Of a stretch of DNA of 64,000 bases, positions 37,283 to 39,197 are shown one piece after another (position 1 is the stretch's first letter; each line of letters starts with the position of its first letter). Source of the DNA: Acidimicrobiaceae bacterium (GTDB lineage: Bacteria; Actinomycetota; Acidimicrobiia; Acidimicrobiales; Ilumatobacteraceae); NCBI GenBank assembly GCA_024641005.1, contig JAHEDX010000002.1, positions 1 through 64,000 of the forward strand, written 5' to 3'. Made by a program: the position numbers and the translations under genes. The notes beneath the pieces are model-generated. The model was not told the origin of the DNA. It did no database searches and saw only the letters and a list, made by a program, of their open reading frames with translations.

Positions 37283-38692
37283 TCAGAGACGTCCGCGGTA
37301 GGTCGCGCTCGAGCCCGAGTCGTCCTTGTTGAGACGTTTCGACAGGTGCAGACCCTCCAACACGAACTCGACGGCTGCTGCGAGGGCCGGAGCCGATGAA
37401 TCATCCGGTGTGAGCGCACCGACCGGGGCGCGAAGAGCGGGCACCTCGATCACCAACCCGGCGAGCTGATCGCTCGTCATGTCCTCGCCGGTCTGTACGA
37501 CCAGCCCCTCCTCGAATGCATCGACGATGGGGGTGGTGTGCGACGGGTCGACCCGATCCTTGAAGACGGTCAGGACGGCACCCTTCACGAGATTGTCGAA
37601 GATCACGCCCTCGCGTCCGTCCTCGAGCGCTTCGATCTCGATCTTGCCGATCGAGCTGGCGGCGAGAGCATCGAGATCGTCGACCCGGGCGACCACGGTG
37701 CGCTCCCCGGCGCGCAGGCCTCGGCGCAGGGCATTCGCAGCGAGTGCTTCGTAGTTCGACACCGACAACCTCACGCTGACACCGCTGCGCTGGTTGACAT
37801 GGTTGCTCGATCGAGCGAGCTGGCTGAAGGTGGCGACCACCTCTCCCAGGTACTCGGGAACCGTCACACCGACGCTCTCGCCGACAGACAACGGGCGGGC
37901 CTCCTGTTTCATGATCTGGTATTCGAGATCGGCGTCGAGCGGATAATGCGTTCGGATCTGCGAACCGAACCGGTCTTTCAACGGGGTGATGATGCGGCCC
38001 CTGTTCGTGTAGTCCTCGGGGTTGGCGGAGGCGACCAGCATCACGTCGAGCGGCAAGCGGATCTTGTAGCCGCGGATCTGTACGTCGCGCTCCTCGAGCA
38101 CGTTGAGCATGCCGACTTGGATCCGCTCGGCGAGATCCGGAAGTTCGTTGATCGCGAAGATGCCGCGATTGGTGCGCGGCACCAGCCCGTAATGCAACGT
38201 GAGTTCATCGGACAGGTACCGCCCTTCGGCCACCTTGATCGGATCGACCTCGCCGATCAAATCGGAGATGGAGGTGTCGGGCGTGGCGAGTTTCTCACCG
38301 AACCGAGCATCTCGATGAACCCAGCTGATCGGGGTGTCGTCACCCATCTCGTCGATCAGATCACGAGCATGTTTCGAGACCGGAGCGTACGGATCGTCAT
38401 TGATCTCGCTGCCGGCGACGATCGGCATCCACTCATCGAGCAGCCCGGTGAGCGACCGGATCATGCGTGTCTTGGCCTGGCCCCGCTCGCCCAGGAAGAT
38501 CACGTCGTGGCCTGCGAGCAGCGCGTTCTCGAGCTGAGGCATGACGGTGTCCTCATACCCGAGCACACCGTCGAACAGGGCCTCGCCGGCGCTGATCTTC
38601 GCGACCGCGTTGGCGCGGATCTCCTCCTTCACCGGCAGGGACATCCAACCCGATGCCCGAAGCTCCCCCAACGTCGCCGCACGCTCAGTCAT
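37283..38692 (-). CDS. MoxR/ChlI-type AAA+ ATPase
   Basis: A 469-residue AAA+ protein. Walker A reads LGERGQAKTRMIR, Walker B-like GIFAINELPDLAERIQ, sensor-1 VMLVASANPEDYTNRG and arginine-finger region LKDRFGSQIRTHYP, as in Mg-chelatase subunit I/MoxR. It presumably remodels target proteins with the VWA partner at 33998-36004. The C-terminal 150 residues are helical with a variable tail. Start 38692 is supported by a -10 box at 38699; Met17 is an alternative. Confidence 0.87.
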   Translation of the reverse strand: MTERAATLGELRASGWMSLPVKEEIRANAVAKISAGEALFDGVLGYEDTVMPQLENALLAGHDVIFLGERGQAKTRMIRSLTGLLDEWMPIVAGSEINDDPYAPVSKHARDLIDEMGDDTPISWVHRDARFGEKLATPDTSISDLIGEVDPIKVAEGRYLSDELTLHYGLVPRTNRGIFAINELPDLAERIQVGMLNVLEERDVQIRGYKIRLPLDVMLVASANPEDYTNRGRIITPLKDRFGSQIRTHYPLDADLEYQIMKQEARPLSVGESVGVTVPEYLGEVVATFSQLARSSNHVNQRSGVSVRLSVSNYEALAANALRRGLRAGERTVVARVDDLDALAASSIGKIEIEALEDGREGVIFDNLVKGAVLTVFKDRVDPSHTTPIVDAFEEGLVVQTGEDMTSDQLAGLVIEVPALRAPVGALTPDDSSAPALAAAVEFVLEGLHLSKRLNKDDSGSSATYRGRL

Positions 38693-38698
38693 GTGCCG

Positions 38699-38704
38699 AA
38701 CCTA
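38699..38704 (-). promoter_or_regulatory. -10 box (TAGGTT on minus strand), leaderless start at 38692
   Basis: TAGGTT ends 6 nt before the ATG of the MoxR-type gene. Confidence 0.5.
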
Positions 38705-38750
38705 GCCCGCTGTGCGACCGTGTGTCCCCTCGGCTTCTGATCGCGAACGA

Positions 38751-38864
38751 TCAGGCCGACCATGACAACAGCCAGAGGGTCCCCATGCCCGCCAGCAGGG
38801 TCCAGATCAGGTTCCGTCGCCACAGTGCGACACCCCCCGCAACGACCAGTGCCGCCGCCTCCAT
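38751..38864 (-). pseudogene. azlD: azlD C-terminal remnant
   Basis: Thirty-seven codons from ATG 38864 read as the end of AzlD, with AALVVAGGVALWRRNLIW and LLAGMGTLWLLSW, the usual last membrane segments. No AzlD N-terminus precedes it; instead the azlC fragment in another frame runs directly into it. AzlD is the small partner of AzlC in branched-chain amino-acid export. A truncated, non-functional remnant is the best reading. Confidence 0.75.
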
Positions 38865-39114
38865 GGCGGGGGTTGATCACGAAGCCGGCCATCACCACGG
38901 CCCAGAACGAAGCGGTGCCCGCAAGCATGATCACCGCCGGTTGGGCGACACCGGCGAAGATCAGCGGCGACGTCGCCCAGCCGATCGCCACGGGCATCTC
39001 CCCCTCGGTCACGGCGAGCCCCAGTACGAACCCGAACGGGATCGCCGGAAGGAACAGCGGGATGGCCTCAGCGATCGCCCGTCGATCGATCCTCGACGTC
39101 GAGGTGTCGCTCAT
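38863..39114 (-). pseudogene. azlC: azlC N-terminal remnant
   Basis: The reading from ATG 39114 has AzlC features for about 84 codons: AIPLFLPAIPFGFVLGLAV, LIFAGVAQPAVIMLAGTA and VINPRH, where AzlC has its conserved N-x-RH. At the His codon (38865-38863) AzlC similarity stops and the open frame (to 38689) continues as unrelated Gly/Arg-rich residues while the AzlD end appears one frame over. AzlC normally continues for another 130 or more residues. An internal deletion spanning the azlC 3' end and azlD 5' end explains this. Confidence 0.75.
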
Positions 39115-39197
39115 CCGTGGCCCTTGCTCATCCTCACACCCTCACTGGTCCGTTGCCCAAGCACATCCGTGGGGAGGGTACCCAGGCGCACGGTGGG

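Follow-up and report, generated by a model that had tools for sequence, protein, structure and literature searches.

A probable deletion pseudogene of azlC-azlD upstream of moxR in an Acidimicrobiaceae bacterium

Results

Remnants of two exporter genes at one locus

AzlCD is a branched-chain amino-acid exporter, called BrnFE in Corynebacterium and YgaZH in E. coli. The locus described here lies in a 64,000-nt stretch of contig JAHEDX010000002.1 (hereafter the window), from an Acidimicrobiaceae bacterium of the Ilumatobacteraceae (GCA_024641005.1). The source assembly comprises 175 contigs, is 94% complete with 2.7% contamination, and is probably a metagenome bin. On the minus strand, upstream of an intact moxR gene, a single open reading frame (ORF) overlaps parts of both azlC and azlD (Table 1).

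Table 1. Features of the collapsed azl locus (window coordinates)
Feature	Position	Strand	Size or evidence
Collapsed ORF	39114..38689	-	141 aa
azlC remnant, codons 1-84, the last being the RH histidine codon (38865-38863)	38863..39114	-	Pfam AzlC 1-67 of 137
Deletion junction	38862..38864	-	blastn break; missing lengths and breakpoints in seven relatives
azlD remnant, final 36 codons and stop, frame shifted by one relative to azlC	38751..38861	-	Pfam AzlD 67-98 of 99
azlC frame beyond the junction, open and without match; its TGA overlaps the moxR ATG	38689..38862	-	corresponding frame open in 7/7 relatives
TACCCT box, conserved 5' of azlC starts; putative leaderless -10 element	39175..39180	-	7/7 intact relatives
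Apparent second lesion: out-of-frame ATG 39166 and 9-bp direct repeat CCACGGATG	39112..39172	-	start comparison, repeat search
moxR, intact downstream MoxR-type AAA ATPase gene	37283..38692	-	AAA_5 domain; 93% identical to G003

Residues 19-84 of the collapsed ORF matched positions 1-67 of the 137-position Pfam AzlC profile (PF03591) with 35.4 bits, against a cut-off of 32.1. AzlD (PF05437) was found in the next frame, where a 37-aa peptide read from 38864 matched positions 67-98 of 99 with 24.8 bits (cut-off 23.7). A six-frame family search of the genome placed AzlC at 38863-39060 and AzlD at 38766-38870. A first-pass annotation, made from the window's letters, had proposed that AzlC similarity ends at the RH histidine codon and that the AzlD C terminus starts one frame over at 38864; Pfam and the genome search agreed on both points. 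The same annotation gave 38751 as the end of the open frame, which was an error: the azlD stop codon ends there, and the frame runs on to 38689. It further expected gene callers to report one intact hypothetical protein. One open frame is indeed present, but its score above the Pfam AzlC threshold might lead callers to give it more than a hypothetical label; against NCBIfam, the collapsed ORF gave no match at E ≤ 0.01.

The intact orthologues at G003:C82, in the nearest relative, which belongs to the same genus, share the gene neighbourhood, including the adjoining moxR. The azlC remnant is 77% identical to this AzlC over residues 4-84, and the azlD remnant is 77.8% identical to its AzlD across 36 residues. 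Whereas both genes are full length in G003 (azlC, 237 aa when read from an internal ATG; azlD, 105 aa) and cover profile positions 1-136 and 3-98, respectively, neither domain is whole in the window. Of AzlC, the locus retains the N-terminal half and has lost the C-terminal half; of AzlD, it retains the C-terminal third and has lost the N-terminal two thirds. The remains keep the original gene order but lie in different frames. In place of the two intact, adjacent subunit genes of an AzlCD exporter, there is one collapsed frame.

Intact relatives reveal a clean internal deletion

When the window was compared with G003 by blastn, two arms were obtained, each 79% identical, with one unassigned base between them in the window and 680 bases between them in G003. 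One arm stops at 38864 and the other restarts at 38862, so that the junction is sharp to 1-2 bases and lies where it had first been placed. With the count begun at the histidine codon, the locus lacks 679 bp relative to G003 and 658-679 bp across seven relatives, a length whose remainder modulo 3 is 1 in all seven. The missing portion consists of the azlC 3' end and the azlD 5' end. Alignment to the intact genes of relatives therefore shows exactly the single internal deletion proposed in the first-pass annotation.

Full azlC and azlD are present in seven of nine same-genus genomes, azlC being absent from G002 and G008. We compared eight relative regions, with moxR as the synteny anchor, leaving out G008, which has neither azlC nor moxR. 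The divergent glycosidase gene was found in all eight, and intact azlC and azlD orthologues occupy the same place in every one except G002. As at the window locus, moxR directly follows azlD in G003, G009, G001 and G007. Approximately 2 kb separates the two genes in G004 and G005, and G006 has no moxR on its azl contig, just a moxR fragment on another. Counting this fragment, moxR occurs in eight of the nine genus relatives.

A search of 200 family genomes with the 84-residue remnant gave matches in 27, the genome of origin included. In the other 26, the open frames holding the best match measured at least 238 aa from stop to stop, and the short form was absent from all of them; relatives sharing the same short protein, which, if under selection, had been named among the observations that would speak against a deletion, did not appear. 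We also considered a programmed frameshift or a natural fusion of the two genes. Both are ruled out, as azlC and azlD are separate and complete in the relatives, and the missing sequence is absent from the window rather than out of frame.

A break of this kind might also arise in assembly, if the organism's azlCD were intact and about 0.67 kb had been skipped by the assembler or through a chimeric read, and the fragmentation of the source assembly is compatible with such an error. We consider it unlikely, because the breakpoints in the relatives match in register over only 1-2 bases, and the longest word common to both breakpoints within 60 bp is 7-13 bases long and does not lie at the junction. 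Survival of the missing segment elsewhere in the assembly was likewise ruled out. The family search of the genome yielded three AzlC and three AzlD matches, which correspond to two intact pairs (contigs C35 and C32) and the remnant, with no trace of the missing piece; a DNA search of the same genome with the missing G003 segment returned only stretches of up to about 50 bases, the best being 42 bases (E 7e-4). Moreover, the displaced start and the faster protein change described below are two further signs of decay, neither of which rests on the junction.

The azlC start signal is displaced in the window

Each of the seven intact relatives has an ATG or GTG in frame with azlC that is preceded, at a distance of 5-8 bases, by a TAC[CT]CT box. 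The sequence TANNNT is described about 12 bp upstream of the start of leaderless bacterial genes (PMC3160421) and as the common -10 motif in M. tuberculosis (PMC3898074). The box-to-start layout of the intact azlC genes is that of a leaderless gene.

In the window, the box is followed by an ATG at 39166 that sits 79 bases from the anchor codon and out of the azlC frame, and the frame opened by this ATG stops after 10 codons. Such an out-of-frame displacement occurs in the window only, by comparison with the seven genus relatives that form the control set. The comparison thus shows the putative azlC start signal displaced from its gene, an apparent second lesion that was missed in the first reading of the sequence and became visible when starts were compared across relatives.

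The 9-mer CCACGGATG occurs twice on the minus strand, at 39172-39164 and at 39120-39112, 52 bp apart, and the last three bases of the second copy are the ATG with which the azlC remnant begins. From this repeat we infer that the displacement probably reflects a small insertion of about 52 bp at the azlC start codon. The repeat itself is suggestive rather than proof of an insertion and could be due to chance: among 722 pairs of ATGs spaced 20-90 bp apart on this strand, five, the CCACGGATG pair included, share at least 6 bases on their left. The 43 bases between the two copies are found nowhere else in the genome of origin, allowing 3 mismatches, and give only chance-level matches in the other genomes of the genus; on these grounds, an insertion element was rejected as their origin. 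A scan for sigma-70 promoters and terminators found nothing. Six bases upstream of the internal ATG at 39114 stands a weak AAGGG, and the azlC remnant may still be translated from this ATG.

The remnants change faster than the adjoining moxR

Of 47 positions that are invariant across all seven intact relatives, 5 are changed in the window. As a control, every intact relative was scored against the remaining six, which gave 0-3 changed positions among 47-50.

We polarised the differences between the window and G003 by means of other genomes, with moxR as the evolutionary-rate control. In the azlC part (75 codons), there were 10 amino-acid and 14 synonymous changes on the window lineage, and 4 and 9 on that of G003. 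The azlD part (36 codons) gave 5 and 6 in the window and 3 and 5 in G003, and moxR (465 codons) gave 7 and 91 in the window and 19 and 52 in G003. By Fisher's test on these simple parsimony counts, in which changes are few, p = 0.009 for azlC versus moxR and p = 0.008 for the azlC and azlD remnants together versus moxR. The contrast in the ratio of amino-acid to synonymous changes between azl and moxR had p = 7e-6 within the window lineage and p = 0.59 within G003. Amino-acid change is faster in the remnants than in the adjoining moxR, and constraint on them is relaxed, judged on small numbers. The pairwise dN/dS between the azlC remnant and G003 is still low (0.118), suggesting that the two had for the most part diverged before constraint was lost.

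The open frame past the junction is unremarkable

The first-pass annotation had held that the azlC frame continues past the junction by chance. Given the base composition, 57 post-junction codons would stay open with a probability of about 0.22 (22%), and all seven intact relatives have 44-76 open codons in the corresponding frame; the claim is borne out, and the open frame requires no explanation. The ATGA in which the stop of the collapsed ORF overlaps the start of moxR arises as a by-product of the sequence at that start.

The openness of the ORF, together with this overlap of its TGA and the moxR ATG, could otherwise point to a functional short protein or leader peptide, the 141-aa ORF being kept, for instance, for translational coupling to moxR. 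We think this very improbable, given that the same frame is open in the intact relatives by the same accident, that no other matching genome has a short form, that the azlC part is changing at conserved residues, and that moxR has a conserved start signal of its own. This signal is a TAGGTT box immediately 5' of the moxR ATG (38692 in the window), found in seven of the eight compared genomes and replaced by TAGCGT in G007. Its conservation suggests that moxR probably has its own leaderless start and that the collapse upstream need not harm it. We would be surprised if the collapsed ORF were translated as a small membrane peptide, with the N-terminal part of AzlC and a new tail, ending at the start codon of moxR and kept as a leader for coupling or tuning moxR expression.

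Discussion

We are confident that the locus is a deletion pseudogene of azlC-azlD. An ancestral azlC-azlD pair stood between the divergent glycosidase gene and a moxR-VWA gene pair. As the comparison with relatives shows, one event removed about 0.66-0.68 kb and left codon 84 of azlC followed, in a different frame, by the final 36 codons of azlD. The conserved start signal was also moved out of the azlC frame, probably through the insertion of about 52 bp. A working exporter is no longer possible from this locus, and the rate comparison suggests that the remnants are drifting. The genome still has two other azlCD pairs, which probably explains why loss of this one was tolerated, and moxR was probably unaffected, since it carries its own conserved TAGGTT-ATG signal of the leaderless type.

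This is ordinary biology: a well-preserved pseudogene and a tidy case of a common process. Like ordinary bacterial deletion pseudogenes, the locus has a clean internal deletion, an extra lesion, relaxed constraint and redundant copies elsewhere; it differs from them only in that the azl frame is open through the junction and resembles one gene. Because the two collapsed genes read as one open gene that scores above the Pfam AzlC threshold, automatic annotation could list an exporter that is not there. Comparison of start signals across relatives can expose a second lesion that protein comparison misses.

The place of azlCD is occupied otherwise in G002, where a PAS-GGDEF-EAL gene (L080:3484-5814), encoded on the other strand from moxR, takes up the site flanked by moxR and the glycosidase gene.
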